DNA of 64,000 nucleotides from Streptococcus tangpeifui (GTDB taxonomy: Bacteria; Bacillota; Bacilli; Lactobacillales; Streptococcaceae). A program made the position numbers and the translations under genes. The DNA is taken from assembly GCF_011038795.1 (NCBI RefSeq), contig NZ_JAAKDU010000005.1, positions 62,001-126,000 on the forward strand, in the 5' to 3' direction. Each line of letters opens with the position of its first letter. Within the stretch, counting starts at the first letter, position 1. Below the pieces are notes generated by a model. It was given only the letters and a program-made list of their open reading frames with translations, did not search any database and was not told the origin of the DNA. Positions 21,896-48,790 of the stretch are shown here, piece by piece.

Positions 21896-22235
21896 CAGAG
21901 TCGATATAAAAAATGAGGTTGGGAAAAAGTATTCCAGCCTTCTAATTTTGCAGTAATAACAGTTTGACGCAGTGGTTGGGAGTAAGACTTGTTGGCTATG
22001 CCAAGAAGTCTTACCCCTGCACAGTTCATTAGGTGCTTTAGCACCTAATGAACCACTGCTGATTGGAGGTCCTTATCTTGGGGTGCAGTCCCATTTTCAG
22101 GCATCCCCTTAAACAGTCCGCTGGGCTGTTTAACTACTCCGCAATTGTTAGCGGCCACCACCCTAATCAACTGTGCGGAGGTAGGACGACGAAGTCAATT
22201 TTTTATATAAATTGACTTCTGTCCCACTCTCATTT
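21896..22235. repeat. Composite hairpin repeat, copy A
   Basis: Contains GTAAGACTT-G-TTGGC-TAT-GCCAA-G-AAGTCTTAC, then GTTCATTAGGTGC with GCACCTAATGAAC, enclosed by GCAGTG/CACTGC. Shared with copies B and C. Confidence 0.75.
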
Positions 22236-22240
22236 TTGTG

Positions 22241-22399
22241 CTAATCCAAATAGTCATGATTACGGTACCATTTGATGGTAGCTAACATTGTCTCTTCAAT
22301 TGGGCGAAAATATCCTCCCAATTCTTTTTTTGTTTTAGTATGATCAAAGTGAGTGCGCTGGTATTCCTCTACAGCAGAGGCGATTTTATCCTTCGAAAT
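22241..22399 (-). pseudogene. C-terminal remnant of an NAD-dependent epimerase/reductase
   Basis: The minus strand reads to a stop at 22241: K-E-L-G-G-Y-F-R-P-I-E-E-T-M and T-I-K-W-Y-R-N-H-D-Y-L-D. This looks like the last ~50 residues of a dihydroflavonol-reductase type short-chain dehydrogenase. An in-frame stop lies just upstream and no body of the gene is present. Confidence 0.5.
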
Positions 22400-22411
22400 T
22401 GTCAGAAAATT

Positions 22412-22440
22412 TTGTTACTCATCTAAATCTATGGTAGAAT
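22412..22440 (+). promoter_or_regulatory. Promoter of the ArAE-like gene
   Basis: TTGTTA (22412-22417) and TAGAAT (22435-22440) are 17 bases apart. Confidence 0.65.
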
Positions 22441-22475
22441 AGGGAAGTGAATTTTTGGAAGGCGGGTTTTCAATT

Positions 22476-22991
22476 GTGGGACGATTTCGTTTTAATCCTC
22501 AAGAATTTAAGTTAGGCATGCGGACTTTTAAAACTGGCCTAGCTGTTTTCTTAGTCTTAGCTCTTTTTGCTCTTTTGGGGTTTAAGGGTTTGCAGATTGG
22601 CAGTTTAACGGCTGTTTTTAGTCTCAGGGAAAATTTCGATAAGAGTATTCACTTCGGAACCTCCCGAATTGTTGGCAATACCATTGGTGGTGTCTATTCT
22701 TTGCTCTTTTTCGGTATTAGTGAACTTTTTCATCGTCCTTTGTGGGTGATGTTAGTCTTTGTTCCTATTTTTACCATGCTGACCATTATGACTAATGTGG
22801 CTATGAATAATAAAACTGGGATTATTGGGGCTGTAGCGGCTTTCTTAATTATTACTCTGTCTATTCCAGAAGGAGATACCTTTACCTACACAATTGCTCG
22901 GATTTTTGAAACTTTTGTAGGTGTATTTATCGCAACTTTAGTCAATGCGGATATTGACCGAGTTCGTGAAAAATTTTTTAACAAGTCTTAA
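22476..22991 (+). CDS. FUSC/ArAE-like membrane protein
   Basis: About 171 residues with four or five hydrophobic segments, beginning G-R-F-R-F-N-P-Q-E-F-K-L-G-M-R-T-F-K-T-G. This matches small Firmicute proteins of the aromatic acid exporter (ArAE_1, DUF939) family. The GTG at 22476 is chosen because GGAAGGCGG lies upstream; a TTG at 22455 is also possible. The gene lies between pgk and glnR, as in mutans-group streptococci. Substrate unknown. Confidence 0.75.
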   Translation: MGRFRFNPQEFKLGMRTFKTGLAVFLVLALFALLGFKGLQIGSLTAVFSLRENFDKSIHFGTSRIVGNTIGGVYSLLFFGISELFHRPLWVMLVFVPIFTMLTIMTNVAMNNKTGIIGAVAAFLIITLSIPEGDTFTYTIARIFETFVGVFIATLVNADIDRVREKFFNKS

Positions 22992-23046
22992 ATTTAGGTC
23001 TTATAAATCATTGATTTATGAGGCTTTTTATTCACTCTAATTTCAA

Positions 23047-23063
23047 TGTCAGAAAATATAACA
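23047..23063. promoter_or_regulatory. GlnR box
   Basis: TGTCAGAAAATATAACA fits TGTNA-N7-TNACA exactly. It lies seven bases upstream of the -35 of the glnRA promoter, so GlnR should repress its own operon when glutamine is high. Confidence 0.9.
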
Positions 23064-23069
23064 TTTGAC

Positions 23070-23098
23070 TTGACAGAGGCTCTTTTTCAGCCTATAAT
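23070..23098 (+). promoter_or_regulatory. Promoter of glnR-glnA
   Basis: TTGACA (23070-23075) and TATAAT (23093-23098) at 17 bases, both perfect. Confidence 0.95.
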
Positions 23099-23118
23099 GG
23101 TTCGTGAAAGGAGTTTTT

Positions 23119-23490
23119 ATGCGAGAAAAAGAGTTCAGACGTTCTCTAGCCGTCTTTCCAATTGGTTCAGTTATGAAGCTGACCGATTTAACAGCCAGAC
23201 AGATTCGCTATTATGAAGATCAAGGTCTTTTAACTCCCGATCGCAGTTCTAGTAACCGCCGTCTCTATTCCTTGAATGATATGGATGTTTTACTAGAAAT
23301 TAAAGATTTTCTGGATGAAGGTTTGAATATTGCCGCTATTAAAAAAGAATACGCTAAACGTCAAGAGTCTGCTAATAGTAAACAAAAGCCATTAACAGAT
23401 GCTGATGTTCGGCGGATTTTGCAGGATGAGTTGCGCAATCAAGCGAGATTTACCTCACCTAAGTCCAATTTTGGTGGTTTCCGGATGTAG
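23119..23490 (+). CDS. glnR: Nitrogen regulator GlnR
   Basis: 123 residues, MerR family: the winged helix has L-T-D-L-T-A-R-Q-I-R-Y-Y-E-D-Q-G-L-L, with the typical C-terminal tail ending S-N-F-G-G-F-R-M, which senses feedback-inhibited glutamine synthetase. The ATG at 23119 behind GAAAGGAG is preferred to the upstream GTG at 23104. The gene is followed by glnA after 99 bases. Confidence 0.95.
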   Translation: MREKEFRRSLAVFPIGSVMKLTDLTARQIRYYEDQGLLTPDRSSSNRRLYSLNDMDVLLEIKDFLDEGLNIAAIKKEYAKRQESANSKQKPLTDADVRRILQDELRNQARFTSPKSNFGGFRM

Positions 23491-23589
23491 TTTCTGGTGA
23501 TCCCACTCACTATTCTCACTCATAAAACATGGGCAGGTTGGAAATTGAGTTACTTTTTTGCCCCTTACAACTTAGAAGAGGAGGCCGTT

Positions 23590-24936
23590 ATGGCAATCAC
23601 AGTAGACGATATTCGTCGCGAAGTCAAAGAGAAAAATGTTACCTTTTTACGTTTAATGTTTTCGGATATAGCAGGAACTATGAAGAATGTTGAAATTCCT
23701 GCTACTGAGGAACAGCTTGATAAGGTTTTATCAAACAAGGCTATGTTTGACGGATCGTCTATTGAGGGATTTGTACGGATTAATGAGTCTGATATGTATC
23801 TCTACCCAGATCTTGACACTTGGACTGTTTTCCCTTGGGGAGGAGAAAATGGTGCTGTTGCTGGATTAATTTGTGATATTTATACGGCTCAAGGTGAGCC
23901 TTTTGCAGGGGATCCGCGTGGCAATTTGAAGCGTGCCCTACGTCACATGGAAGAAATGGGATTTAAATCATTTAATCTAGGTCCAGAACCAGAGTTCTTC
24001 CTCTTTAAAATGGACGAACTTGGTAATCCAACACTAGAAGTGAACGACAAGGGTGGTTATTTTGACCTTGCGCCAACCGATTTAGCTGACAATACCCGTC
24101 GGGAAATTGTCAATGTTTTAACTAAGATGGGATTTGAAGTTGAAGCTAGTCACCATGAAGTAGCTGTTGGTCAGCATGAGATTGACTTCAAGTATAGCGA
24201 TGTTCTTAAGGCTTGTGACCATATTCAAATCTTTAAATTGGTTGTTAAAACGATTGCTCGTAAGCATGGTCTCTATGCGACTTTTATGGCCAAACCTAAA
24301 TTCGGCATTAATGGTTCAGGGATGCACTGTAATATGTCCCTCTTTGATGCCGAAGGTAATAATGCTTTCTTTGATCCTGACGATCCCCGTGGTATGCAGC
24401 TGTCGCAAAATGCTTACTATTTTTTGGGTGGTTTGATGGAGCATGCCTATAACTATACAGCTATTGTCAACCCAACCGTTAACTCTTATAAGCGTTTGGT
24501 ACCTGGTTATGAAGCACCTGTATATATTGCTTGGGCTGGTCAAAACCGTTCTCCATTGATCCGTGTACCTGCCTCTCGTGGTAAGGGAACGCGTTTGGAA
24601 CTACGTTCAGTTGACCCTACGGCCAATCCTTACCTAGCTTTGGCGGTGCTGCTAGAAGCTGGTCTTGATGGTATTGAAAACAAGATTGAAGCTCCAGCCC
24701 CTGTTGAATCCAATATCTATGTCATGACAGCAGACGAACGTAAGGCTGCTGGTATTCGTGATTTACCTTCAACTCTCCATAATGCAGTCAAGGCTCTACA
24801 GGAGGATGAAGTGGTTAAAGCAGCTCTTGGTAATCATATCTATCCTAATTTTGTTGAAGCAAAACGAATGGAATGGGCTAGCTATGCAGCTTTTGTTTCT
24901 CAATGGGAAGTTGATAACTACTTAGATTTATATTAA
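23590..24936 (+). CDS. glnA: Glutamine synthetase, type I
   Basis: 448 residues. Seen: [26 protein letters not shown] and the C-terminal W-E-V-D-N-Y. It makes glutamine from glutamate, ammonia and ATP. No adenylylation-type N-terminal extension is present, typical of GSI-alpha controlled by feedback and GlnR. ATG 23590 sits behind AGAGGAGG. Confidence 0.97.
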
Positions 24937-24975
24937 GTTTTGCCTGACGCTAAGGCTATTAGATAAAAATAAAGT

Positions 24976-25010
24976 AAGGAACTTGATGGCTTGTCAGGTT
25001 TCTTTTATTT
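24976..25010 (+). terminator. Terminator of glnA
   Basis: AACTTGA (24980-24986) pairs with TCAGGTT (24994-25000), followed by TCTTTTATTT. Confidence 0.6.
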
Positions 25011-25218
25011 GGCGAATGATAAGCTTAAAATTTTCTTTTTGTGTCAATCTGGTTAAAAAATTAACAATTTAAGTAGAATTTGTCACCAGAATAATCAAGG
25101 ATTTTAATTTTGAATTAATGGACTTGTTATTTTTTCTTGTTAAACTGGAAACACAGTAAAAGAATCCTAAGTAAATTTATTGATTAGGATTTTTATTATG
25201 AACATAAGGGGAAATAAG

Positions 25219-25872
25219 ATGAATAAAAAATTATCAACTGCAAGTTTATTTGTTGCTGCAACAGTTTTAGTGGGTTTGGCAGGTCAAGTCGCTCAAGCCG
25301 AAACCTACACCGTTCAAAATGGTGATAGCTTCTTTTCTATCGCCAGCAATCAAGGGATGGATCCTTATCAATTGGCAGCCAATAATGGAATGACCATTTC
25401 AAGCACAATTTTGCCTGGTCAAACTATTGAAGTTGATGGTTCTACTCAGGCAGCTGCACCAGCTCAAGAAGCTGTACCAGTTGCTGAAGCACCTGTCGAT
25501 CAGGGGCAGGCTGCGGCTCCAGCCTTGGATACGGCAGTAAATACTTATCCTACAGGTCAATGTACTTGGGGAGTAAAACAGGTAACTGGTTGGGCCGGTG
25601 ACTGGTGGGGTAATGGTGGCGATTGGGCTGCCAGCGCAGCTAGTGATGGTTACACAGTCGGTTCTACTCCGCAGGTTGGTTCTATTATTTGTTGGTCTGA
25701 TGGCGGCTACGGTCATGTTGCCTATGTTACAGATGTCAACGACCAAGGTCAAATCCAAGTTTTGGAATCCAACTATAAGGATAACCTAGAAATTAATAAC
25801 TATCGTGGTTGGTTCGATCCTAATAATAGCGTAACTCCAGGTCAAGTTAGCTATATCTACCCTAACTCATAA
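25219..25872 (+). CDS. Secreted LysM-CHAP cell-wall hydrolase
   Basis: 217 residues. Signal peptide at 1-27 ending A-Q-A-E. LysM domain from T-Y-T-V-Q-N-G-D-S to about residue 73. An Ala/Pro-rich linker leads to a CHAP domain with catalytic Cys in G-Q-C-T-W-G and His in G-H-V-A-Y-V. Such proteins cleave peptide cross-links or act as amidases in septum splitting and cell separation. The ATG at 25219 lies behind GGGGAAATAAG. Single gene with its own terminator at 25902-25930. GbpB/SibA-like genes are larger; the true orthologue is not certain. Confidence 0.85.
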   Translation: MNKKLSTASLFVAATVLVGLAGQVAQAETYTVQNGDSFFSIASNQGMDPYQLAANNGMTISSTILPGQTIEVDGSTQAAAPAQEAVPVAEAPVDQGQAAAPALDTAVNTYPTGQCTWGVKQVTGWAGDWWGNGGDWAASAASDGYTVGSTPQVGSIICWSDGGYGHVAYVTDVNDQGQIQVLESNYKDNLEINNYRGWFDPNNSVTPGQVSYIYPNS

Positions 25873-25901
25873 TCATAATAGGCAAAGAATAAACGAAGCC
25901 T

Positions 25902-25930
25902 AAGCCTTCTCATTTTGGGAGGCTTTTTCT
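25902..25930 (+). terminator. Terminator of the CHAP gene
   Basis: AAGCCTTCTC with GGGAGGCTT, followed by TTTTC. Confidence 0.7.
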
Positions 25931-26036
25931 TTAGGCCATTTAATTCTGTCTCCGTCTGACCCCGCTAGGTACGAGACAATAATTTACCACTGGTGAGAGT
26001 CATGATTACAATGGTTAGATTTATACTTGGAACGGA

Positions 26037-26071
26037 GAAAAACTCGCTTGGAACTTACAAGCGAGTTTTTT
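26037..26071. terminator. Bidirectional terminator between the CHAP gene and rnjA
   Basis: AACTCGCTTG (26041-26050) pairs with CAAGCGAGTT (26058-26067), with A-run on the left and T-run on the right. Confidence 0.9.
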
Positions 26072-27763
26072 CTATTTATCGTTATTTTTGTCTGGTGTTA
26101 GAATCATTGGAATAATGATAGGTTCACGTTCTGTTTGCTCGTAGAGGAAGGGCCTCAGGGCATTGACGATAGCTCCATTAACGCTTTGGATACTGGCCTC
26201 TTTATTCTTAAGGGCGATCCGAATAGCATTGAAGAGGATACGTTGGCCTTGACGAATCAAATCCCCTGATTCTCGCATATAGACGAAACCTCGGCTAAGA
26301 ATATCCGGTCCTGCCAAAATCATCTTGGTCTTAAAATCAACGGTAGCGACTGCTAAAACGACCCCATCTTCTGAGAGATCCCGTCGATCCCGAAGAACTG
26401 CAGTACCAATATCACCGATACCATTACCATCAACATAGATGTCTTGAGCATTGAAATGTCCGGCACGACGAGCAGAATCTTTAGTCAGGGCAAGGACATC
26501 CCCATTTTCCATGATAAAAATATTCTCTCTTGAGATACCCGTATCTTCGGCTAATCCAGCATGGACCTTTTGCATCCGATACTCGCCATGGACGGGCATA
26601 AAGAATTTTGGTTTAATCAGACGGAGCATGAGTTTTTGCTCTTGTTGGCCGCCGTGTCCAGAAGTGTGAATATTATTAATCTTACCATGGATAACATCCA
26701 CACCAGCTTCCTGAATAGTGTTAATCAGCTTGTTGACGCTGGTTGTATTGCCTGGAATTGGGCTAGACGAGAAAATGACCGTGTCCCCAGGTTGTAAAGT
26801 GACTTGCCGATGGGTACCATTGGCAATCCGAGCTAAGGCAGCCATAGATTCCCCTTGACTGCCGGTACACATAATCATAATTTCGCTGGCATGGTAATCT
26901 TTGAGTTCATTTGGTTCAATGAAGGTTCCATCAGGCACTTTGATATAGCCCAGTTCAATCCCATTGACGATAGCCTTCTCCATAGAGCGACCAAAAACAA
27001 CAATCTTACGGCCGTTCTTAACGGCGGCTTCTGCAGCCTGCTGCAGACGGAAAATATTGGAAGCGAAGGAAGCAAAGATAATTCGACCGTGGATATCCCC
27101 AATAATTTTCATAATGGATTGACCGACAACTTTTTCCGAATTAGTAAAAGTTGGAATCTCCGCATTGGTAGAGTCTGATAGAAGGCAGAGAACGCCATCG
27201 TCACCGATGGCAGCCATACGGTGAAGGTCAGCTGGTTGACCAACAGGCGTAAAATCAAACTTAAAGTCACCGGTACAGACAATTTTGCCTTGGGGCGTGT
27301 GGATGACAATTCCTAGAGGTTCTGGAATTGAGTGAGTTGTTCGGAAGAAGGTGACACTGAGATTTTTAAAAGTTAATTTAGTGTTATCATTGATTTCATA
27401 CAGTTTAGCATCGCGCAGGAGACCATGTTCCTCTAACTTTCCGCGAATGAGGGCTAAAGCCAAAGGGCCAGCATAGATAGGAATATTGGCCTGCTTGAGC
27501 AGGAAAGGGATTCCTCCAATGTGATCCTCATGTCCATGGGTTATGACCAAGGCTTTAATCCGATCAACATTTTCAACGATATAAGAATAGTCGGGAATAA
27601 CATAGTCGATACCAAGAAGGTCATCTTCTGGGAACTTGATACCGGCATCGACGATGATAATTTCATCTTGGTATTCGATACCATAGGTATTTTTACCAAT
27701 TTCCCCCAGTCCGCCTATAGCATAAACTCCGACTTCTTCGGGTTTTAAATTGATAGTTGACAT
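26072..27763 (-). CDS. rnjA: Ribonuclease J1
   Basis: 563 residues. Seen: metallo-beta-lactamase motif H-G-H-E-D-H-I-G-G (76-84), V-C-T-G-D-F-K-F-D, the beta-CASP region, [10 protein letters not shown] and a P-V-H-G-E-Y near 390. RNase J1 has 5'-3' exonuclease and endonuclease activity on mRNA. It is the second gene of an operon with rpoY, one base after its stop. RNase Y is also encoded in this window. Confidence 0.96.
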
Positions 27764-27764
27764 A

Positions 27765-27995
27765 TTAGAACTCCGTTAGACTAAAGGTACCTGATTCTTT
27801 TTCATAGTCTAGGTGTTTATCAGATAATAATTCAATAAATTCAATATTGTAGTTTGTTTTTTCTTCAATTACTTTTCGAGCCTTGATTCGACCTTCAAGT
27901 TCATCTTTGGCGTTAATATCCAGATAAAGGGCTTGAGTGGTTTCGCGTCTTGGGCTACGGTCCTTAGTTTCTTGATAAAAAACTTTATAAATCAT
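27765..27995 (-). CDS. rpoY: RNA polymerase epsilon subunit
   Basis: 76 residues beginning [11 protein letters not shown] with the R-R-E-T segment, as in the YkzG/RpoY family, a small Firmicute RNA polymerase subunit. The start at 27995 is chosen because it gives the family N-terminus; the longer frame adds 14 atypical residues. The pairing rpoY-rnjA is conserved in Bacilli. A -10 TATAAT lies on the minus strand at 28082-28087, with a weak -35. Confidence 0.9.
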
Positions 27996-28240
27996 GGTTT
28001 TCCTTTCTGAGTTGTCAGGTATTTCTAAAAGATTCAAATCAAAAAAAGCCTTGTCGTGCCAGTTTGATTATTTTCTATTAAATTATACTGAGTAGTAGTT
28101 TGACCTGAACATTTATAGCTATCGAAATTATATCATAAAAAAGGGGATTAGTAAAAAGGAATCAATCTTGTCGGGGAGACTGAGGTGTCAAGGACTATAT
28201 TTTATGATAAAATAAGAAGGAATTTGACGAGAGGGAAATC

Positions 28241-28927
28241 ATGAAATTATTAGCTTTTGACACATCCAATCAGCCCTTGTCAGTGGCGCTTTTGGAAGAT
28301 GATAAAATCGTGGCGGACTTGACCTTGACGGTTAAAAAGAACCACAGTATCAGCTTGATGCCGACTATTGATTTTTTGGTAGCTCAAGTAGGCTGGCAAC
28401 CCAGTGATTTGGAGCGGATTGTCGTGGCTCAAGGGCCTGGATCCTATACTGGGCTAAGAGTAGCGGTAGCGACTGCTAAAACCTTGGCCTATAGCTTAGG
28501 GATTGATTTGGTTGGAATGTCTAGTTTACAGGCTTTATGTGATCTGGAAGTGGACGGTCTAGTTATCCCTTTAATTGATGCTAGACGACAGAATGTCTAC
28601 GTCGGTTTTTATGAGGCCGGACAAATCGTCTCCCCAGAGCGGCATGCTAGTTTGGCAGACGTCTTGGACTTTGCCCAGTCTTATCCTCAAGTAACCTTTG
28701 TTGGTGAAGCAGAGAAGTTTCGGCCAGAAATTGAAGAAGTTCTGCCTCAAGCCCAGATTGTTGAAACCTTGCCATCGGCTAGCTTGCTAGGGCATTTGGG
28801 TCGAAGTCAGTCAGCGGTAGATGTCCATGCCTTTGTACCAAATTATCTCAAACGAGTTGAGGCGGAAGAAAATTGGCTTAAAACCCATCAAGAAAATAAT
28901 TCTGATAATTATATCAAGCGCGTCTAA
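28241..28927 (+). CDS. tsaB: tRNA t6A synthesis protein TsaB
   Basis: 228 residues, ASKHA fold: F-D-T-S-N-Q-P-L-S-V-A at the start and G-P-G-S-Y-T-G-L-R near residue 66. TsaB scaffolds TsaD in making N6-threonylcarbamoyl-adenosine on ANN-reading tRNAs. RBS GAGAGGGAAAT precedes the ATG. One base separates it from rimI; tsaD follows 42 bases after rimI. Confidence 0.95.
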   Translation: MKLLAFDTSNQPLSVALLEDDKIVADLTLTVKKNHSISLMPTIDFLVAQVGWQPSDLERIVVAQGPGSYTGLRVAVATAKTLAYSLGIDLVGMSSLQALCDLEVDGLVIPLIDARRQNVYVGFYEAGQIVSPERHASLADVLDFAQSYPQVTFVGEAEKFRPEIEEVLPQAQIVETLPSASLLGHLGRSQSAVDVHAFVPNYLKRVEAEENWLKTHQENNSDNYIKRV

Positions 28928-28928
28928 A

Positions 28929-29345
28929 ATGAAAGAGAAAGAATTAGCTCAGTCTATTTATGATATTCTAGCGGATGTCTATGGCCAGTCCCCTTGGACC
29001 TTGGCTCAGGTACAAGCGGATTTAGCTCAGGACAATACCGATTATTTTTATGCTTATGAAGGGCATGAAATTGTTGGTTTTTTATCCATTCAGAATCTGG
29101 TTGGTCAATTAGAAATTACTAATCTGGCTGTTAAGAAAGCCTACCAAGGTCAAGGATTGGCCAGTCGGTTATTGCAGAAGTTAGAAGGCCGATCAGAAGA
29201 CATCTTTTTGGAAGTTAGGGCCTCAAATCAGTCCGCCAAAAGGCTCTATGAAAAGTTTAACTTTAGCTGCTTGGCTAAGCGCAAGGCCTATTATCATAAT
29301 CCAATCGAAGATGCTCTGATCATGCAACGGGCTGCTAAGAAATAA
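28929..29345 (+). CDS. rimI: Ribosomal-protein/tRNA-linked N-acetyltransferase RimI
   Basis: 138 residues, GNAT fold with N-L-A-V-x-x-x-Y-Q-G-Q-G-L-A and the tail N-Q-S-A-K-R-L-Y-E-K. The start at ATG 28929 directly follows the tsaB stop. RimI acetylates the S18 N-terminus in E. coli, but gram-positive substrates are less clear. The conserved neighbourhood with tsaB and tsaD is typical. Confidence 0.88.
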   Translation: MKEKELAQSIYDILADVYGQSPWTLAQVQADLAQDNTDYFYAYEGHEIVGFLSIQNLVGQLEITNLAVKKAYQGQGLASRLLQKLEGRSEDIFLEVRASNQSAKRLYEKFNFSCLAKRKAYYHNPIEDALIMQRAAKK

Positions 29346-29387
29346 GGAAGATTGAGTCTGGCAAATTGGCTATTATGAGGTTGAATA

Positions 29388-32226: not shown

Positions 32227-32671
32227 GCTCTTAAATGAGTCTGGGAAAAAGTCCAGATTCGTTAGCCTTGTTCTAGATTGACACAGTAGTTGGGAGTAAG
32301 ACTATTGGTTAGACCAAGAAGTCTTAACCCTGCACAGTTCATGAGATACTTTAGTACCAATGAACCACTGCTGATTGGATTTTTCTGTAACTGGAGCTTC
32401 TTAGTTTTTAAGCGCCCCCTTAAACAGTCTGGGAGGCTGTTTGAGAAACCAATATCCAACTGTGCGGAGGTGGGTTAAAAAGCTCTGGCAGAGCTTTTTA
32501 ATCGGGAAATAAAGCTTGCAAAGCAAGTGTCAAAATGCTCCAGTGGACTTTGGCAGTCTGAAGCCTGCCACTTAAAAACAAGAAAGTGGCAGAGGCCTGA
32601 GCCTTAAAATGGAGAGCGAGGAAAATCAAAGTCGTGATTTTATCACGATTTACTGATTGAGTCCCACTCTC
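32225..32671. repeat. Composite hairpin repeat, copy B
   Basis: It fills the gap between nth and the aldolase gene. The stem reads TTGGT-TAG-ACCAA where copy A has TTGGC-TAT-GCCAA, a paired change. Its right half (from about 32530) matches copy D in reverse. Short minus-strand ORFs here are translations of the repeat, not genes. Confidence 0.75.
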
Positions 32672-35929: not shown

Positions 35930-36375
35930 ACAGAGGAGGCTGGGTAAGAACTCGTCCAGTCTCCCTGTTTTGGAATAAACTCTTAGCGCATTGGCTGGGA
36001 GCAAGACTTGTTGACTATGCCAAGCAGTCTTACCCTGCACAGTTGATTAGGCTGGCTGCTCTCACTTGCGTGATAGTTAAACAGTCCAGTGGACTGTTTA
36101 GGGGGTTGCCTGACAATGGGACTGAGGACTGCCAATTAACCACTGCGTCAATCTGGTCAATCTAGAACAATGTTAACAAGTCTAGACTTTTGTCCCAGAC
36201 TCCATTGCTGGCCAAGGCCAAAGCGGAAAACCTAAACGAACGTGATGAACCTTCTTAATTTTATTTCCGACCTCAAAAGATCTCCCGGACCTTTTGAGGT
36301 GTGCGGGGGTGGGAATGCAGCCCAAAATTTTCAATTTTTGGGTTGCTCCCACTCCCTTTTTGATTGGAAAGGATA
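35930..36375. repeat. Composite hairpin repeat, copy C
   Basis: Shares GCAAGACTT-G-TTGAC-TAT-GCCAA with copies A and B and ends with two further hairpins: ACCTCAAAAG/CTTTTGAGGT and GCCCAAAA/TTTTGGG. It fills the gap between rocS and the exonuclease gene. Confidence 0.7.
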
Positions 36376-40146: not shown

Positions 40147-40182
40147 AGATGGGAAATGAAAAAAATTAGAAGGAAGTGCACT

Positions 40183-41520
40183 ATGTCGAAAATTGAAACA
40201 CGTTTTACTGACAAACTATATGCAGACTACCAGGCCAACCCTAAGCTGAGAGCTGTTGAAAATGCTGTGACTCATGCTGGACTGCTTAAGTCTTTAGAAA
40301 ATCGCAAGGCTAGTCAAAATAATGATTTTGCCTACTCCATTGATTTAACCAAGGATGAGGTTGCCAATCAAAAACAATCCGGTCGTTGCTGGATGTTTGC
40401 GGCTCTCAATACCTTCCGTCATAAATTAATTGCAGACTTTAAGTTGGAGAATTTTGAGCTCTCTCAAGCTCATACCTTCTTCTGGGATAAGTATGAAAAA
40501 TCTAACTGGTTCTTAGAGCAAATTATTGCGACAGCTGACCAAGAGTTAGGTAGCCGCAAGGTTAAATTCTTGCTTGATGTTCCACAACAAGATGGGGGGC
40601 AATGGGACATGGTCGTGGCTCTCTTTGAAAAGTACGGAATTGTACCCAAATCAGTTTATCCAGAATCTATTTCATCTAGCAATAGTCGGGAACTTAATCA
40701 ATATCTTAATAAGTTGCTCCGTCAAGATGCTCAAATCTTGCGGGAATTAATTGCTGCTGGTGCTGATGACAGCTCTGTCCAAGCTAAGAAGGAGGAGCTC
40801 TTGCAAGAAATCTTTAATTTCTTAGCTGTTAATCTTGGTCTGCCACCGCGTCGGTTTGATTTTGCCTATCGCGATAAGGATGACAATTACCATAAGGATA
40901 GTGATATCACACCGCAGGAATTTTACCAAAAGTATGTAGGTCTCAAGCTGGATGATTATGTATCTATCATCAATGCTCCGACAGCGGATAAGCCCTATGG
41001 TAAGTCTTATACAGTTGAGCTTTTAGGAAATGTAGTCGGCAGTCGCCAAGTTCGCTACCTCAATCTAGATATGAAACGTTTTAAGGAACTGGCTATTGCT
41101 CAAATGAAGGCTGGTGAAACGGTTTGGTTTGGTTCAGATGTGGGTCAATCCAGCAACCGTCAATCTGGCGTTATGGCCACTAATCTGTATGATTTTGCGA
41201 CAGCCCTTGATATTGACTTTAAGCAAGATAAAGCTGGCCGTTTGGATTACAGCGAAAGCCTGATGACTCACGCCATGGTTCTAACTGGTGTTGATTTGGA
41301 TACCGAGGGTCGTCCCCTTAAATGGAAGGTCGAAAATTCTTGGGGAGAAAAGGTCGGTAAGGATGGTTATTTCGTTGCAACTGATAGCTGGATGGACGAA
41401 TATACTTACCAAATTGTTGTCCGTAAAGAGTTTCTAACTCAAGAAGAACTGGCAGCCTATCAAGCAGAACCAACAGTTTTGGCACCTTGGGATCCAATGG
41501 GAGCTTTGGCTAGCAGATAA
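40183..41520 (+). CDS. pepC: Aminopeptidase C
   Basis: 445 residues, papain-like: S-G-R-C-W-M-F-A (catalytic Cys 69), T-H-A-M-V-L-T-G-V (His) and W-K-V-E-N-S-W-G (Asn). The C-terminal end blocks the active site in the bleomycin-hydrolase family. It trims peptides in the cytoplasm. ATG 40183 sits behind AGAAGGAA. Convergent with pbp1a, with two separate terminators between them. Confidence 0.95.
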   Translation: MSKIETRFTDKLYADYQANPKLRAVENAVTHAGLLKSLENRKASQNNDFAYSIDLTKDEVANQKQSGRCWMFAALNTFRHKLIADFKLENFELSQAHTFFWDKYEKSNWFLEQIIATADQELGSRKVKFLLDVPQQDGGQWDMVVALFEKYGIVPKSVYPESISSSNSRELNQYLNKLLRQDAQILRELIAAGADDSSVQAKKEELLQEIFNFLAVNLGLPPRRFDFAYRDKDDNYHKDSDITPQEFYQKYVGLKLDDYVSIINAPTADKPYGKSYTVELLGNVVGSRQVRYLNLDMKRFKELAIAQMKAGETVWFGSDVGQSSNRQSGVMATNLYDFATALDIDFKQDKAGRLDYSESLMTHAMVLTGVDLDTEGRPLKWKVENSWGEKVGKDGYFVATDSWMDEYTYQIVVRKEFLTQEELAAYQAEPTVLAPWDPMGALASR

Positions 41521-41544
41521 ATTTTAGCTTTTTAGAAATATACA

Positions 41545-41577
41545 TAAATCCTAGAAGAAAATGCTTCTAGGATTTTT
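41545..41577 (+). terminator. Terminator of pepC
   Basis: AAATCCTAGAAG with CTTCTAGGATTT. Confidence 0.9.
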
Positions 41578-41586
41578 CAGATGTTT

Positions 41587-41620
41587 AAAAGAGCCTTGAG
41601 CGTAAACTCAAGACCCTTTT
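41587..41620 (-). terminator. Terminator of pbp1a
   Basis: On the minus strand AAAAGGGTCTTGAG pairs with CTCAAGGCTCTTTT. Confidence 0.7.
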
Positions 41621-41622
41621 AG

Positions 41623-43878
41623 CTATTCACTATCGTTATCTTCGCTGTCGTCATTATTTTGATTGGTTTGACTGCTTGATGAGCTACTATTATCATCAGA
41701 ACTGCTGCTGGAACTTTGCGTCTGAGTATCAGAACTGCTGCTGTAGCTATAGGATGATGATGACGTGCTGTAACTATAGTTATTACTGTAACCACTCTTG
41801 GCAACATAACCACCGCTACGATAGACCCCATCAGGCATCGTCCAATCTGTAGAACCACTGCCATAAGTTTGGAAGAGGAAGGAACTCATAGCTTGATAAA
41901 CTTCTGCTGCGACATCAAGACCTGTACCATAGACAGGCGTGAAGCGACTCTTATAACCAGTCCAAACAGCCATGGAGTACATTGGGGTGATCCCAACGAA
42001 GGATTCGTCAGGAGCCATGGTTCCCACAGAAGCATTGTAGAGGCCGGTATTAGCTTCGACTTGTGCCAACTCATCATCGGAGTAGTTGGAAGTACCGGTT
42101 TTACCGGCATTAATAGCACCAGGCACAGCAGCTTTGGTACCTGTACCAGCTTGTAGAACAGTCTTCATCATATCGACCATCATGTAGGCTGTTTCAGGTG
42201 ACATAGCCTGTGATCCGTTCGATGAGAAGGTTTGGTCCTTACCATTACTAAACTCAATTTTATTGATATAGAGAGGTTCATAGTAAGTACCACCGTTGGC
42301 AAAAGCAGCATAAGCAGCAGCCATTTTTTCAGAGCTGGCTCCATATTTTTGGTCAGCGCTGCTAGTATTACTTGAGATAGCATTGGAGTATTGCAATTCA
42401 GGATAATTAATCCCCAATCCGCTCAAGAAGGCTTGGGCTTTATCTAGACCGACTGAATAGAGAGACTTAACTGCCGGAATATTACGAGATTGCTGGATAG
42501 CGGTTTGGATAGACATGGTTCCCATATATTTTCTATCCCAGTCGTAAACTGGTGTCGATGTTCCAGGGAAATTGTAAGGACTATCGGAAACACTTGCACC
42601 AGTTGAGTTGTACACACCATTTTCGATGGCTGGCGCATAATCCGTGATTGGTTTCATGGTTGAACCCCAGTCACGGTCGGTTAGGACAGCTTGGTTAGAC
42701 CCCATCGAAACAGCTGCATCTTGGTGCCGAGCACCGATTTGAGCCACAACATTACCATTAGTCACATCAATGACGGTTGTCGCTATCTGCATTTGGTCAT
42801 CAGGGTAAGCCACATAATCATCGGAGTTGACAATATCGTAAAGACGTTGTTGAGCAGTCGGGTCAACATTCGTATAAACTTTAAGTCCTGCGCTGTAGAC
42901 ATCTGCATGGGTCTTGGCCGAAACTTGATTGACAACTTCCTTGATATAATTATCGAGGTAGGCATCATAGCTTGATTTTTCGGTCTGTGGAATCAACCCA
43001 TCTCCAACATCAGTGGCGATAGCAGAATCGTAAGTCTTCTTATCGATGCTGCCCACCTTATACATTTCAGAAAGGACAGTATCCCGCCGTTTCTTGGACT
43101 GTTCAGGATTGGTGTAAGGGTCATAGAGAGTTGGAGCATTTGGCAGCCCTGCAAGGAGAGCCAGCTGAGGAATGGATAAGTCAGTGAGACTCTTGCCATA
43201 GTAGCCTTTGGCTGCGGTTTGCATTCCGTAATAACCATTCCCCATATAAACTTTATTGACGTAGAAGGTCATGATTTCTTCTTTGCTGTACTTCTTTTCC
43301 ATCTGGATTGACAGCCAGGCCTCTTGAGCCTTCCGTTTAAGAGTCTTATCGGAATTATTAGTGGAGAAGTAGGCCAGTTTGATTAATTGCTGGTCAAGCG
43401 TAGATCCCCCTTGGGTGCTGGTACGGGTCATATTGTGCCAGGCCGCACCGATAATCCGATAGATATCAATCCCACGGTGTTTATAGAAGCGATGGTCCTC
43501 AATAGCTGTAATAGCATTAACCAGATTAACAGGAATTGAATCGGTTTTAGCACTGATCCGCTTTTCTGCTCCTAAGTCAGCGATTTCACTGCCATTTTTG
43601 TCGTAGAGAATACTTGAGTTAGTAGCAACCAGCTGTCTTTCGGACAGACTAGGCGCACTGCTGGCATAATAAGCGAAAAGCAAGCCGCCTGCAATGATCC
43701 CAACGATTGCTAGGGAGGCGATAATGCCTAGAAAGTACTTAAAGAATTTCCAAGACTTCTGCTTAGGTGTTAATTTGCGTCCATGTTCGCCTTCACTTTT
43801 TCCAATTGATTTGATTCGGTCGGATAAATTATTCCCAATGCCCTTCAAATCTGGAAATTTAAAATTAAAATTTTTCAT
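41623..43878 (-). CDS. pbp1a: Class A penicillin-binding protein 1a
   Basis: 751 residues. A membrane anchor near 47-71 is followed by a glycosyltransferase with [10 protein letters not shown] (127-136). The transpeptidase has S-T-M-K (SxxK) in G-S-T-M-K-P, an S-x-N motif and K-T-G-T-S. The last ~60 residues are rich in Ser, Asn and Asp, with no folded domain. It polymerises and cross-links glycan. Starts within the last bases of recU (ATGA overlap). Confidence 0.95.
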
Positions 43879-44480
43879 AAGTCTTTACTTCCGTTCAAAA
43901 AATGGTAGTCGATAATGTCTAAATAAGGTACCTGAGGAAAGGCACTTTCCTTGATTATGATACCCTTTTTTCTGATATAATGAAGGGGCATGGACTTGCT
44001 GCCATTGTCAATCTGATAAAAATCTATCAGAGCCCTCGCTGGTAGGAGATAAGTTTCTTTCAAGCTAGAAAAATGCAGTAGGACAAAGCAAATGCCATCC
44101 TGCTTGAGCACCTGTTCCATGTGTTCAACCTGATGGGCATGAAAATTTTTCATGGGCATGGCTGTTTTTTGGCGGGTCTCCTTAGCCTCAAAGTCAATAT
44201 AATGCCCCTTATAAACACCAGAATAATCTGTTGTGGAGGCTTGACGAAAGTAGGCTTCTACTATTTTTGCCCGACTCCGTCTGGGATAATCAACCTTGAC
44301 AATCTGAACAGGGGTCGGTTTCTTGTGAATGACAGCCATCTGATGGGCCAAATAGTATTCATTGGTCTGGTTGATAGCTGCTTCGAAAGACATTCCCCGA
44401 TTGGCAAAATCAGTTTTTTTCTTTTGCTGCCTTACTTTTGGAAATGGCTTACGAACAAGGTTATGTGGATAGTTAACCAT
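43875..44480 (-). CDS. recU: Holliday junction resolvase RecU
   Basis: 201 residues. Seen: N-R-G-M-S-F-E-x-x-I-N-x-T-N-E-Y-Y, and [15 protein letters not shown] with the metal ligands. RecU resolves Holliday junctions with RuvAB. The recU-pbp pair is conserved in Firmicutes. Its promoter has extended -10 TGGTATAAT on the minus strand near 44524-44529. The divergent ypsA starts 75 bases away. Confidence 0.94.
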
Positions 44481-44555
44481 AATTCTCCTAACTGAAACAG
44501 ACTTATTTCCATAAGCCTTCCCATTATACCATAAAAATTTGAAGGAATACAGTCT

Positions 44556-45080
44556 ATGACCTCAATTCTTGTAACGGGTTACCGTAATTTTGAACTGGGA
44601 ATTTTTAAAGATGATGACCCTAAAATTGGGATTATCAAAAAAGCTATCAAACGGGCCATTTTACACTATTGTGATCAAGGCTTGGACTGGCTCATTTTTA
44701 CAGGAAATCTGGGTTTTGAATTCTGGACTTTTGAAGTTGCTGAAGAGCTAAAGTCAGAATATCAGTTTCAAACGGCAGTGATTTTTCCTTTTCAAACGCA
44801 TGGTCAAAATTGGAAGGAAAGCAATCAAGAAAAGCTGGCTCGTTTTAAGCAGGCTGATTTTGTGAAATATTCCTATGAGAGCTATCAAAATCCTAGCCAA
44901 TTTAGAATTTACAATCAATTTTTGATTGATAATACTGATGGCGCCTATGTTTTTTATGATTCTGAAGCTGAAACGAACTTGAAATATTTTATCAAGCAAA
45001 TGACCTCAAATAATCATTATTTTGTAGACTTCTTAACTTTCGAAAATTTAAATGAAATTTTGGAAGAGGATGAGTGGTAA
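44556..45080 (+). CDS. ypsA: YpsA family protein (DUF1273)
   Basis: 174 residues. Seen: [11 protein letters not shown] near the start and [15 protein letters not shown], typical of the SLOG-like YpsA fold. Bacillus YpsA affects cell division. Context (recU, gpsB) fits. RBS GAAGGA precedes the ATG. Confidence 0.88.
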
Positions 45081-45171
45081 AGACTTGATTTTTGATAGTT
45101 TTGTCTGTATAATTACTATTTGCTAGGGCTGTTAGCTCTGACAAAAATGACAGATAGGTATGGAGAAAAGA

Positions 45172-45510
45172 ATGGCAAGTATTATTTTTAGTCCTAAGGA
45201 CATTTATGAACAAGATTTTAAAACCAGTATGCGCGGCTATGACAAGAATGAAGTTGATGAATTTTTAGATGATGTCATCAAGGACTATGAGACTTATGCG
45301 GCTCAAATTGCAGCTTTGCGCAAGGAAAATGAAAAGTTAAAAGCTGATGCTAAAAAAGCTGCGGCTCAGCCTGCTAGTGTGACCCCATCGTACGGCAGTG
45401 ATGGTCTTCGCACGGCTAGTGTGGCCTCGGCACAAGCTAGTAATATTGATCTTTTGAAGCGCGTTAGCCGCCTTGAAAAGGAAGTTTTCGGGAAACAATT
45501 GATGGACTAG
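45172..45510 (+). CDS. gpsB: Cell division regulator GpsB
   Basis: 112 residues. DivIVA-like N-terminus (F-S-P-K-D-I-Y-E-Q-D-F, then R-G-Y-D-K-N-E-V-D-E-F-L-D), a coiled coil, a linker and a C-terminal helical end (I-D-L-L-K-R-V-S-R-L-E-K-E-V-F-G). GpsB links septal and peripheral wall synthesis through PBPs and MreC/EzrA. ATG 45172 is behind GGAGAA. Confidence 0.94.
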   Translation: MASIIFSPKDIYEQDFKTSMRGYDKNEVDEFLDDVIKDYETYAAQIAALRKENEKLKADAKKAAAQPASVTPSYGSDGLRTASVASAQASNIDLLKRVSRLEKEVFGKQLMD

Positions 45511-45518
45511 AAGACAGT

Positions 45519-45903
45519 GTGCAATTTTTGGATAATCGCATGTCACTTTTTAGTTGATATGAGGAAAGTCCATGCTAGCACTGGCTGTGATGCCAGTAGT
45601 GTTTGTGCTAGGTGAAACAATAAGCCTAGGCATGTCTATTTGACATGACGGCGGACGACGGAGCTAAGTTCTTGGATATGTTCCCAGTCCTGAAAGTGCC
45701 ACAGTGACGGAGTCCTTGAGGAAACTTAAGGAGTGGAACGCGGTAAACCCCTCAAGCTAGCAACCCAAATTTTGGTCGGGGCACGAGATGGCTGGAATCC
45801 GAACGGACCATCTTGACTGCGTAAGCGGTAGACAGATGATTATCGAAGGAGACAGCACCTAGTGTCTCTGGAACAAAACATGGCTTATAGAAAATTGCAT
45901 AAT
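45519..45903 (+). ncRNA. rnpB: RNase P RNA, type B
   Basis: The 5' GTGCAATTTTTGG pairs with AAAATTGCAT at the end (P1). Universally conserved GAGGAAAGTCCATGC near 45564 and GGAACAAAACATGGCTTA near the end are seen, with the streptococcal type B sequence in between. It is the ribozyme that cuts tRNA 5' leaders. It sits between gpsB and the methyltransferase gene. A terminator follows. Confidence 0.96.
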
Positions 45904-45912
45904 AGGTTTAGG

Positions 45913-45936
45913 AGCTAGCTCAGGCTAGCTTTTATT
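45913..45936 (+). terminator. Terminator of rnpB
   Basis: AGCTAGC (45913-45919) pairs with GCTAGCT (45924-45930), followed by TTT. Confidence 0.8.
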
Positions 45937-45955
45937 GTATAAAAATAGGACAAAT

Positions 45956-47110
45956 ATGAAGCAAACATTTAATTTAATAGCAACAGCGGCAGCAGGACTC
46001 GAAGCAGTAGTTGGCCGTGAAATTAAAGATTTGGGAATTGAGCGCCAGGTTGAAAATGGCCGGGTGCGTTTTCAAGGAGATATCCGTACAATCGCGGAAA
46101 CGAACCTCTGGCTGCGGGCAGCAGACCGCATTAAGATTGTCGTGGGGGAATTTCCGGCTCGGACCTTTGAAGAACTTTTTCAAGGGGTCTTTGCCTTGGA
46201 TTGGGAAAACTACCTGCCTTTGGGAGCTAAGTTTCCAGTAGCTAAGGCCAAATGTGTCCGTTCCAAGCTCCATAATGAGCCTAGTGTTCAGGCTATTACT
46301 AAAAAAGCCATTGTTAAAAAATTGCAGAGCTATTTCCATCGTCCTGAAGGGGTTCCCCTGCAAGAAATTGGGGCTGAATTTAGGATAGAGGTATCGATTC
46401 ATAAGGATCAGGCCATGGTCATGATTGATACAACAGGAGAAAGTCTTTTTAAACGGGGCTACCGAACTGATAAGGGCGGAGCTCCTATCAAAGAAAATAT
46501 GGCAGCTGCTATCATTATGCTGTCCAACTGGTATCCTGATAAACCTTTTATCGATCCGACTTGCGGTTCGGGGACCTTCTGTATTGAAGCGGCCATGATC
46601 GGTATGAACATTGCACCAGGCTTTAATCGGGATTTTGCCTTTGAAGCTTGGCCCTGGGTTGATAAAGAGCTAGTTGAGGCTGTCCGTGATGAAGCAGACG
46701 GCAAAGCCAACTATGATATAGAGTTGGATATTATGGGGACAGATATTGATGCCCGCATGATTGAAGTTGCTAAAAATAATGCCTTAGAAGCAGGACTTGC
46801 AGATGTTATCAAATTGAAACAAATGCGCTTGCAAGACTTGAAAACAGATAAAATCAACGGCGTTATTATTTCTAATCCTCCTTATGGGGAGCGATTGCTT
46901 GATGACAAAGCGGTTGACATTCTGTATAATGAAATGGGTCAGACCTTTGCTTCACTTAGGACTTGGAGCAAGTTTATTTTGACCAGTGATGAAAATTTTG
47001 AACAAAAGTATGGGACAGCCGCTGATAAGAAACGCAAGCTCTATAACGGAACCTTGCGGGTTGATTTGTATCAATATTTTGGTCAGCGGGTTAAGCGATC
47101 AGAAATGTAG
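45956..47110 (+). CDS. THUMP-domain class I rRNA methyltransferase
   Basis: 384 residues. N-terminal THUMP (about 50-150) and methyltransferase motifs D-P-T-C-G-S-G-T-F-C-I-E-A and S-N-P-P-Y-G-E-R. These match the N-terminal half of RlmL and the Firmicute single-domain relatives, which methylate guanine N2 in 23S rRNA. It starts about 20 bases after the rnpB terminator and 11 bases before mapZ. Confidence 0.9.
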   Translation: MKQTFNLIATAAAGLEAVVGREIKDLGIERQVENGRVRFQGDIRTIAETNLWLRAADRIKIVVGEFPARTFEELFQGVFALDWENYLPLGAKFPVAKAKCVRSKLHNEPSVQAITKKAIVKKLQSYFHRPEGVPLQEIGAEFRIEVSIHKDQAMVMIDTTGESLFKRGYRTDKGGAPIKENMAAAIIMLSNWYPDKPFIDPTCGSGTFCIEAAMIGMNIAPGFNRDFAFEAWPWVDKELVEAVRDEADGKANYDIELDIMGTDIDARMIEVAKNNALEAGLADVIKLKQMRLQDLKTDKINGVIISNPPYGERLLDDKAVDILYNEMGQTFASLRTWSKFILTSDENFEQKYGTAADKKRKLYNGTLRVDLYQYFGQRVKRSEM

Positions 47111-47121
47111 AGAGGACTTTT

Positions 47122-48588
47122 ATGGCTAAGGAAAATGAGAATGGGAAGCTGGATTTTGAAGAAGCCAAGGATATGACAGTTCAAGAAGCTCTTCAAAAAC
47201 ACAAAGAAATTGAAGCCGGCGTCACTGATGATGATGGTGTTCTCGATAAATATATTAAGCAGCACCGTGATCAAGTGGTTGCTGAAAAGTATGAGGCACA
47301 GACGTCTGACTTTGAAAATATTGATACGTCATCTTTGGATAGTTTTATTCAAAAGCAGAGAGAGGAACTGGCCAATCAAGGTTTATTATCTAAGGAAGAG
47401 CCGGAAAGTCAAGCGCAAAATCAGGCTTCTGAAACAATAGCTGCCGACCAGAAGGACCCAGAATTCCTAGATGAAACCCGTGTCTTTGCCCCTGCCAAAG
47501 AAGGGGTGAAATCAGCAGATAAGACTGCTGAGGATGACCAGTCTATCAATGATGAAGACTATCTGGTTGAACCAGAAGAAAAGTCAGATGAGGATGAGGA
47601 TTTCTTACCAGAAGAAGAACCCTCTAAAAAGAAAAAAGCAGGAATTGTAGCTGGCCTAGTGGCCATTTTAGTGGTCATTGTCGGGACTGGTTTTGGCTTG
47701 AATTATTGGAATAAGCAGTCAACGACAACGGTATCTTCTGGAGCTAGTACTAAAGGTAAAGATGCTGGCAAAACAGATTACAAAGCTTTTCAAAAGTCCT
47801 ATAAGTCCTTCTTTATTGATGATAAACAGACCCAGTTGAAAAATAGTCAGTTCAGCCAGCTGGTTAATCTCAATAAGACTCTGAAAAAACTTGATGGTAC
47901 GACTTATTATAAAGATGCCAAGTCAGATTATAGCAGTCTGAATAAGCAGATTACAGCGATCAAAACTGTCAATAAACTTTTTGACAAAGATATGATTGTT
48001 GATGGAAAGTTGGCTGCCGATGCTAAGGCCAAGAAGGATGCGGATTTTGATAGCCTGACTGATGATACTCTTAAAACTGGTAATAGCACACTTGATAAAT
48101 TGATTCAAGAAGCTATTAAAAAGGGGAAGGAGCAGCAAAAAGCTAGTCAAACTCCTGCTTCCAGTTCATCTAGTCAGTCTGGTTCTGCTCCTGCTGATAA
48201 TGGTGGTCAAAATACCAATACTGGCTCATCCAATAATGCTTCTATTCCTTCTGGTGGGAATATCCGTCAGTCTGGCATTACCAGCTATGACCCTTCCATT
48301 CTTCAACGAGATCGGAGCCGAGTTCCTTATAATGCAGATGCAGTTAAGGATGTCAATAATGCCGCTTGGATTTTTGGTGATGGTATCTTGGAAAAAGTTG
48401 TCTCAACGTCACAGTCACGTGGTTATTTCTCAGGTAATGACTATATTTTGGAGCCGGTTAATATTGTCAATGGTCATGGTTACTATAATATGTATAAGTC
48501 AGACGGCACCTATCTCTTTTCTATAAATGCTCAAACGGGTTACTTTGTTGGAAATGCTTCCGGCAATTCAGATAATCTTGATTTTTAA
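47122..48588 (+). CDS. mapZ: Mid-cell anchored protein Z (MapZ/LocZ)
   Basis: 488 residues. A long acidic cytoplasmic part (1-170) precedes a single membrane helix (about 174-196) after K-K-K-K. An extracellular part with Ser/Asn-rich linker (about 335-370) carries the C-terminal globular domain, which ends with N-A-S-G-N-S-D-N-L-D-F. Streptococcal MapZ marks the equator and guides FtsZ. It follows the methyltransferase at 11 bases, as in other streptococci. Confidence 0.93.
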   Translation: MAKENENGKLDFEEAKDMTVQEALQKHKEIEAGVTDDDGVLDKYIKQHRDQVVAEKYEAQTSDFENIDTSSLDSFIQKQREELANQGLLSKEEPESQAQNQASETIAADQKDPEFLDETRVFAPAKEGVKSADKTAEDDQSINDEDYLVEPEEKSDEDEDFLPEEEPSKKKKAGIVAGLVAILVVIVGTGFGLNYWNKQSTTTVSSGASTKGKDAGKTDYKAFQKSYKSFFIDDKQTQLKNSQFSQLVNLNKTLKKLDGTTYYKDAKSDYSSLNKQITAIKTVNKLFDKDMIVDGKLAADAKAKKDADFDSLTDDTLKTGNSTLDKLIQEAIKKGKEQQKASQTPASSSSSQSGSAPADNGGQNTNTGSSNNASIPSGGNIRQSGITSYDPSILQRDRSRVPYNADAVKDVNNAAWIFGDGILEKVVSTSQSRGYFSGNDYILEPVNIVNGHGYYNMYKSDGTYLFSINAQTGYFVGNASGNSDNLDF

Positions 48589-48597
48589 GTTTTTAAA

Positions 48598-48790
48598 AGA
48601 GAGTGGGACTCAATCGGTAAATCGTGATATAAATACGATTTTGATTTTCCTTGCTCTCCATTTTTATTTAGGCTTTAACCTCTGTTGTTCTTTAAGGTGG
48701 CGAGCGTTTGGCAGTCTATCTCCAGACTGCCAAAGTTCACTGGAGCATTTCATCCCATCTCCGCACAAGGCAAAGTTGATGTAGTGGGCA
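48598..48790. repeat. Composite hairpin repeat, copy D (reverse)
   Basis: GAGTGGGACTCAATC through CACTGGAGCATTT matches the reverse complement of 32535-32671 in copy B. Confidence 0.7.

Follow-up and report, generated by a model that had tools for sequence, protein, structure and literature searches.

A stretch of 64,000 nucleotides from Streptococcus tangpeifui (the window; C17:62001-126000 in our contig numbering, from a genome of 2.25 Mb in 21 contigs) contains four copies, A to D, of one repeat family, and we analyzed this family in its host genome and in related bacteria. The results make it probable that the copies are non-autonomous, modular mobile repeats whose folded form matters for their spreading, which are tolerated at gene ends and whose ground plan has moved between genera. 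A preliminary description of the window had reported related sequence at four sites, and this was borne out by the end-to-end limits found for all four.

The genome-wide search that the same description had proposed revealed more copies than these. A model of the core, R1 (98 positions, 35 pairs), matched the genome 82 times at E <= 0.001, with 63 matches scoring at least 50 bits; this count is a lower bound, obtained by scoring 150 of 959 first-look candidates, the weakest of the 82 being a sub-match within another copy. Inverted ends of the form GAGNNTGGGACARAA, with at most one mismatch, occurred at 100 sites (47 forward and 53 reverse), compared with 6 sites (2 forward and 4 reverse) for the same pattern read backwards, giving the elements the terminal inverted repeats that are one criterion for miniature inverted-repeat transposable elements (MITEs).

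From the loci fetched from this genome we delimited 36 distinct end-to-end elements of 66-584 bases and described their contents by 17 hand-typed module patterns, with errors allowed. The modules follow one order: left end, K1, K2, X, X2, H, P, Q, N, T, V, W and E (or S). With module Z left out, this order was kept by 782 module pairs and broken by 16 in 33 of the 36 elements, and the best of 1000 within-element shuffles was 58% concordant; as the order was derived from the same elements on which it was tested, the agreement shows consistency and not prediction. No two of the 33 module strings were the same. Elements also lie within one another by our reading, copy C containing a reverse, truncated copy and the elements at L040 and L045 seeming to sit inside the K2 hairpin of another copy. 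A 991-base end pair in L085, considered as a larger, cargo-bearing element, was rejected, as it encloses an ordinary lipoprotein-like open reading frame (ORF) and reads as two neighboring elements. At L009 and L010, the element and its near flanks are identical on contigs C11 and C4, where a longer repeat or an assembly duplicate is present.

Covariation and decay in the core stems

The preliminary description had based its argument for a selected structure on a paired change, TTGGCTATGCCAA in copy A and TTGGTTAGACCAA in copy B. The change is present in the sequence; as an argument it failed. At the pair changed in copy B, the 55 copies with both letters (of 57 distinct aligned cores) read CG 41 times, CA 5, TG 5, CC 3 and TA once, single changes being commoner there, and independent change predicts 0.65 double changes, so that the one observed constitutes no evidence.

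Within this genome the copies are decaying, and on the modelled strand their mismatches do not favor G-U. The core alignment, A1, includes 44 distinct own cores; these showed 17 two-sided Watson-Crick changes where independent change predicts 8.9, an excess due in part to four copies sharing one change, and their mismatches comprised 66 G-T and 85 A-C. In a larger set of 56 distinct own cores, 83.9% of stem cells were Watson-Crick, with 81 G-T and 113 A-C mismatches (p 0.026).

When species are compared, both sides of the stems are seen to change. Across all species in A1, two-sided change was found in 17 of 35 pairs against 7.1 after shuffling (0 of 500 shuffles as high), and structures slid along A1 fell to 31-47% paired. 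We also used a tree-aware null, a simplified implementation of ours modelled on a published test and distinct from the published program, in which the substitutions among 148 distinct cores (22 groups after merging) were re-dealt over the tree branches 60 times. Five of 34 pairs reached E < 0.05 (columns 16/47, 19/44, 20/43, 61/83 and 68/77), a sixth stood at E 0.058, and the top three among all column pairs were structural. Stem sets such as AAGACT/AGTCTT, AACACT/AGTGTT, AACTCT/AGAGTT and AACCCT/AGGGTT are legible in the alignment, and mismatches outside this genome, in copies that are not independent of one another, comprised 116 G-T and 77 A-C (p 0.006).

We conclude that the structure is selected at the level of the family, though not on the strength of copy B's paired change, and the earlier claim of a structured composite family under some constraint holds through this cross-species covariation. 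Copies with decay had been named as what would speak against it: the copies of this genome do decay, whereas the comparison of species shows two-sided change in the stems.

The hairpin plan in two genera

Run across Streptococcus with stricter filters and 14 candidates per genome scored, R1 matched 73 of 284 genomes at E <= 0.001 and 23 at E < 1e-8. Core copy number ranged from 0 to 82 matches between genomes, a related genome, G036, having 4, of which 2 reached at least 50 bits. Exact matches to a degenerate core pattern, 15 stretches in all, included S. devriesei, S. orisasini, S. loxodontisalivarius and Streptococcus sp. 'caviae'. Two core subfamilies, with K1 stems of the AAGACT-/CTTTCT- type and of the AACTCT-/AACCCT- type, occur together in one genome and recur in others (G020, G069 and G175).

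The right-end hairpin extends the comparison to a second genus. A permissive Rfam scan of copy A placed S35 (RF02894) on this hairpin at 25.7 bits (E 1e-4 over 381 bases; 24.5 bits and E 5.6e-5 against a shorter stretch of 96 bases), and two of eight loci scanned, L011 and L015, gave 28.9 and 30.9 bits; at 24-31 bits, under the S35 gathering score of 69, the streptococcal copies scanned do not qualify as members. S35 corresponds to srn_0335, which PMC5826253 enters as a bona fide Staphylococcus aureus small RNA (sRNA), supported by Northern blots and annotated as 'Repeated region'. The terminal hairpin aligns with it at E 5.6e-5 to 7e-4; the Rfam family differs in being modelled as an sRNA of 270 positions. 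That the repeats constitute a multi-copy trans-acting sRNA family would agree with this relationship and with the Northern validation of the relative, and it is nevertheless very improbable, given that a consensus scan of positions 21800-22300 around copy A detected no promoter-like site, that the scores fall short of gathering and that module content varies from element to element. Near two elements, at L011:1364-1462 (-) and L105:1684-1778 (-), we observed sub-threshold Rfam matches to SSRC8_2 (Streptococcus sRNA 8) of 43.8 and 49 bits (gathering score 72).

A second model, R2, was built exclusively on Streptococcus loci, from 35 terminal hairpins, in which 47 cells were two-sided against 14.4 after shuffling and 95.2% of cells were paired (0 of 500 as high). 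Applied to the class with stricter filters and 12 candidates per genome scored, it matched 52 of 398 genomes and 2 of 145 genera, 25 of these genomes belonging to the own genus and 27 to one genus of another family, with no match in the other 143 genera sampled; at least two own-genus genomes were without a match. All 12 genomes chosen from the second genus carried R2 matches, 3 to 124 each. Judging by plasmid matches, we take this genus to be Staphylococcus: a complete 161-base element from it (L310) matched 41 plasmid records, all Staphylococcus, 37 of them over at least 80% of the query. Its matches among phage-labelled records were 22, all Staphylococcus and none over 80%, several of these records being very long and unannotated and maybe host DNA. 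When ten second-genus loci were scanned for S35, one scored 73.4 bits, above gathering, seven scored below and two were unmatched. A streptococcal element used as query found two Streptococcus plasmids and one Staphylococcus record, the latter over 68 bases at 81%. On Staphylococcus plasmid NZ_CP022250.1 (L333), a staphylococcal element lies upstream of the plasmid fabI gene.

Streptococcal and second-genus elements have a common ground plan of three successive hairpins: the terminal one, GAGAGTGGGACAGAAATC...GATTTCGTCGTCCCAC; the central one, CGCA-GTTGAGT/ACTCAAC-TGCG; and, at the other end, one of the GAGGCTAGGACTTTTGTCCCAGCCTC type. Most of 42 stretches excised by pattern and aligned (18 streptococcal, 24 second-genus) consist of the terminal hairpin, CCACC[CT]C, the central hairpin, a spacer and the left-end hairpin; the exceptions are at least four cuts from genome G506 (L311, L320 twice and L329), tandem copies that finish in terminal-hairpin sequence and not in the left-end hairpin, and four other cuts are the same element on the opposite strand. 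The arms of the central stem could be parsed in 32 of the 42 (16 per genus, many nearly alike). In place of the streptococcal form given above, staphylococci have GGCA-GGTGACT/AGTCACC-TGCC, CACA-GCTGACT/AGACAGC-TGTG and others, so that between the genera pair s2 takes all four Watson-Crick types (TA, CG, AT and GC), c1 is CG or GC, s6 is GC, TA or CG, and s1 is GC or AT; at s5, half of the staphylococcal elements (8 of 16) have an A-A mismatch. Two unpaired features are kept over both genera, a three-base bulge in the terminal hairpin and a 2-nt/3-nt internal loop in the central one. By our reading, the window elements keep this plan except in the middle, where a longer, modular stretch stands in place of the central hairpin and N (CAACTGTGCGGAGGTGGGA) and GACGCAGTGGTT appear to represent the two arms of its stem; extra hairpin modules in fixed order may have enlarged the central part in this genome.

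Paired changes could also arise with no selection on structure, through template switching between the arms of an inverted repeat. Two-sided changes can indeed come as blocks (AAGACT/AGTCTT to CTTTCT/AGAAAG in G020), and G-T and A-C intermediates are about equal. Template switching should, however, tend to erase the bulge and the internal loop that both genera have retained, and many one-sided changes stand uncorrected in the copies of this genome, making such palindrome correction a quite improbable source of the pattern.

The terminal hairpin also touches the STAR loci of S. aureus, whose printed 'start signature' is GTGGGACAGAAATGAT (PMC3532100). L015 and most of the second-genus copies shown agree with it over the first 13 bases and copy A over the first 11; the end of the signature differs. 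The 14-base STAR motif, T(G/A/T)TGTTG(G/T)GGCCC(C/A), had no exact match in 335 fetched loci, second-genus ones included, and in the window its 2 matches at 2 mismatches were not above chance (2.74 expected). Judged by this motif, the family is not STAR, despite sharing most of the start signature. A more far-reaching proposal, which we regard as unlikely, is that a single structured mobile lineage crossed from one of the two genera to the other and is spread by some enzyme in the form of a folded single strand (of DNA, or of RNA that is copied back), the STAR loci being its eroded descendants and the STAR motif one arm of the central hairpin. If true, it would add a new mechanism of repeat movement and explain the origin of STAR.

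Terminal-hairpin strings of 11-13 bases led, in the literature, to staphylococcal STAR and ftnA papers and otherwise, by title, to other subjects. The paper on the ftnA 3' untranslated region (UTR) was set aside as functional evidence, since the signature occurs there only inside a primer, which has no bearing on function (PMC9093591). In the openly accessible literature we found no named family uniting these repeats; subscription papers lie outside this search, and a description there is possible. BOX, RUP, SPRITE and STAR repeats are treated genus by genus in the sources available, with their way of spreading left open (PMC3049150, PMC3532100). A common plan in two genera, with a central stem covarying between them and a terminal hairpin absent from the other 143 genera sampled in the class, links repeats now treated as unrelated and supplies a precise substrate for tests in its hairpin, bulge and strand. 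It also calls for caution with these genomes, in which repeat pieces may underlie small ORFs and weak 'sRNA' matches.

Genomic surroundings and mobility

Using a simple longest-ORF script as caller, we placed 54 of 58 own cores between callable ORFs, 42 in tandem, 11 convergent and 1 divergent, with 16 of the tandem sites in the same and 26 in the opposite orientation (p 0.16). The 34 element-free gaps of at least 50 bases in the window served as baseline (21 tandem, 6 convergent and 7 divergent), and against it divergent gene pairs are avoided (1 of 54 compared with 7 of 34, p 0.005). Outward T runs (at least 4 T in 8), as terminators would have, stood at 40 of 72 element ends; at positions drawn randomly from these loci, coding sequence included, the rate was 21%.

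The three sites A, B and C, those compared, are without the element in G036. The gaps behind the adjoining genes measure about 243, 64 and 70 bases there, compared with about 791, 497 and 469 here. G036 preserves the order of the three genes. For two of them it is the nearest among ten genomes (84% and 80%); for the third, 20260-21456, which we take to be pgk, it stands at 86% and several other genomes are as close or closer.

Avoidance of divergent pairs and the T runs at element ends would both suit a host-serving RNA, each copy being a terminator or 3'-UTR stability element under selection from its host gene and the covariation reflecting RNA function. The S. aureus relative S35/srn_0335, a Northern-supported sRNA marked 'Repeated region' (PMC5826253), and the conservation of unpaired internal-loop positions point the same way. 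Opposed to it are the decay of the own copies with no G-U preference on the modelled strand, the range of 0 to 82 matches between genomes, the nesting of elements in one another and the three empty sites, and we consider this explanation possible but somewhat unlikely.

We favor mobile repeats, spread by a machinery that may recognize their folded form, either single-stranded DNA or a transcript. Pairing would then be kept in the spreading lineages, owing to this recognition, while single copies decay. Copies would survive mainly behind genes because both of their ends resemble intrinsic terminators, and the three-hairpin plan may have moved between Streptococcus and Staphylococcus, plausibly on plasmids.

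A number of results weigh against this interpretation. In the tree-aware test, 16 of the 24 best-scoring column pairs were non-structural (31/47 and 20/31 among them) and 8 structural, indicating that common descent still inflates the scores. RNAalifold, run unaided on A1, missed the core stems (-0.87 kcal/mol), after which the named structure was counted and tested directly. Two of five R2 measures were weak against shuffles: pairs with two-sided change numbered 7 (4.6 after shuffling, with 11 of 500 shuffles at least that high), and further pair types numbered 18 (16.7 after shuffling, with 105 of 500 at least that high). The balance of G-T and A-C does not distinguish DNA from RNA as the folding strand, the two mismatches being level in the terminal hairpin (15 and 14, one pair left out), with A-C ahead in the own cores and G-T ahead elsewhere. 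Convergent sites showed no enrichment (11 of 54, baseline 6 of 34, p 1.0). With flanking genes 80-86% identical to those here, G036 may instead have lost the element at its empty sites. None of the 36 elements had a target-site duplication of at least 5 bases. No transposition was observed, and no enzyme, target duplication or transcript was found, transcripts not having been looked for. Mobilization by an IS630-type element, by analogy with RUP, was rejected, as the genome has no transposase match to DDE_3, the domain that we take as the marker of IS630. No enzyme was tied to the family; 6 of 23 core-carrying genomes had no Y1 match.

The analogy with REP/RAYT (Y1) fails, only 2 of 30 Y1 loci being near a core. 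The single Y1 gene of this genome is IS200-like (L026:611-1735; G000 C14:201510-202634) and lies inside the right-end module of one element; apart from it, no end pair enclosing a transposase, as expected of an autonomous MITE partner, was present in the own loci fetched. Flanks shared 2, 3 and 4 bases in 4, 2 and 1 elements (2.4, 0.6 and 0.2 expected), the copies being old, and a TA target duplication suggested by eye from the nested copies was not upheld by the count over the 36 elements. Plasmids gave no match to a window copy, and no exact empty site was seen on plasmids. Phage carriage of a window copy was also dismissed, with only one partial match (23% of the query) to a phage record, whose host is S. 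dysgalactiae.

The BOXA1R primer, which we take as a proxy for boxA, had no match in the window at up to 3 mismatches. The present family does share with BOX a modular build in fixed order. BOX elements of S. pneumoniae and S. mitis, with BOX-type elements in S. suis, are likewise described as interspersed modular repeats with inverted ends, a strong predicted fold, ORFs on both strands and a size set by module number, MITE-like and with an unproven enzyme (PMC3049150). They differ in their A-B(n)-C build, compared with at least 10 module kinds in one order here, and in having been shown to cause target duplications (PMC3049150), of which we saw none. We regard the family as a BOX/STAR-like kind of repeat, working like a BOX-type mobile repeat but not shown to be BOX. 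RUP and SPRITE of pneumococcus are also short intergenic streptococcal repeats, SPRITE being terminator-like; RUP differs in its size of ~107 bp and in its hypothesized movement by IS630-Spn1, as against the absence of DDE_3 from the present genome, and SPRITE in being a single 18 bp duplex with a U-rich tract (PMC3049150).

The four copies in the window

The nested hairpins that the preliminary description had attributed to all copies are both found in A and B; C is a nested chimera and D holds end modules only. R1 accordingly scored C at 40.3 bits, and D was not among its matches. In copy A, K1 is formed by GTAAGACTT/AAGTCTTAC with TTGGC/GCCAA and K2 by GTTCATT/AATGAAC with GGTGC/GCACC, and the whole copy folds much better than shuffled versions of it (z -11.9, with none of 100 equalling it). 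The proposed closure by CAGTG/CACTG stands in part: the helix is present in 89.5% of cells (57 distinct aligned cores), while copy B has CAGTA, and in the minimum-energy fold of A alone the 3' ACTGC is paired to an upstream GCAGT rather than closing CAGTG. For copy C, scripted end pairing gave 35936-36202, and the limit at 36356 comes from reading.

Table 1. Positions and composition of the family's copies in the window
Feature	Position	Strand	Remarks
Copy A, whole	21915..22231	+	Order: left-end hairpin, K1, K2, X, X2, junction N, right terminal hairpin S
Copy A, left-end hairpin GAGGTTGGGA...TTCCAGCCTT	21915..21941	+	Terminator-like; 1 found vs 0.4 expected in shuffles
Copy A, core (nested hairpins K1+K2)	21968..22066	+	Alignment A1; R1 match 121.4 bits
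Copy A, right terminal hairpin	22162..22231	-	Inward reading GAGAGTGGGACAGAAGTC...GACTTCGTCGTCC; part common to Staphylococcus
Copy B, whole	32237..32671	+	Left end, K1, K2, H2, N, T, W and E modules; site without element in related genome G036
Copy B, core with TTGGT/ACCAA	32282..32378	+	R1 92.6 bits
Copy C, outer element	35936..36356	+	Left end, K1, interruption, Z-type module, right end CTCCCACTCCC; outer end by reading
Second, truncated element nested in C	36052..36202	-	Core absent; end at 36188-36202; inner limit approximate
Copy D	48599..48985	-	Both ends and modules P, V, E; nested hairpins absent

Small ORFs occur on both strands of the elements. All eight that we tested had no Pfam or NCBIfam family above cut-off, and a single ORF tested against phage was also unmatched; on these results we rejected the reading of the ORFs as genes. 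At gathering scores, Rfam identified only RNase P and two tRNAs in the whole window. Further partial matches to the terminal hairpin lie at 21615-21668 (E 2.9e-6) and 63216-63260 (E 2.7e-4). Behind pgk, positions 21457-21900 contain degenerate copies of the pgk 3' end (~35-50 bases up to the stop codon) between terminator-like hairpins; such copies also stand behind pgk in several related genomes (L250, L252 and L254), the unit occurring several times in L252 (G207).

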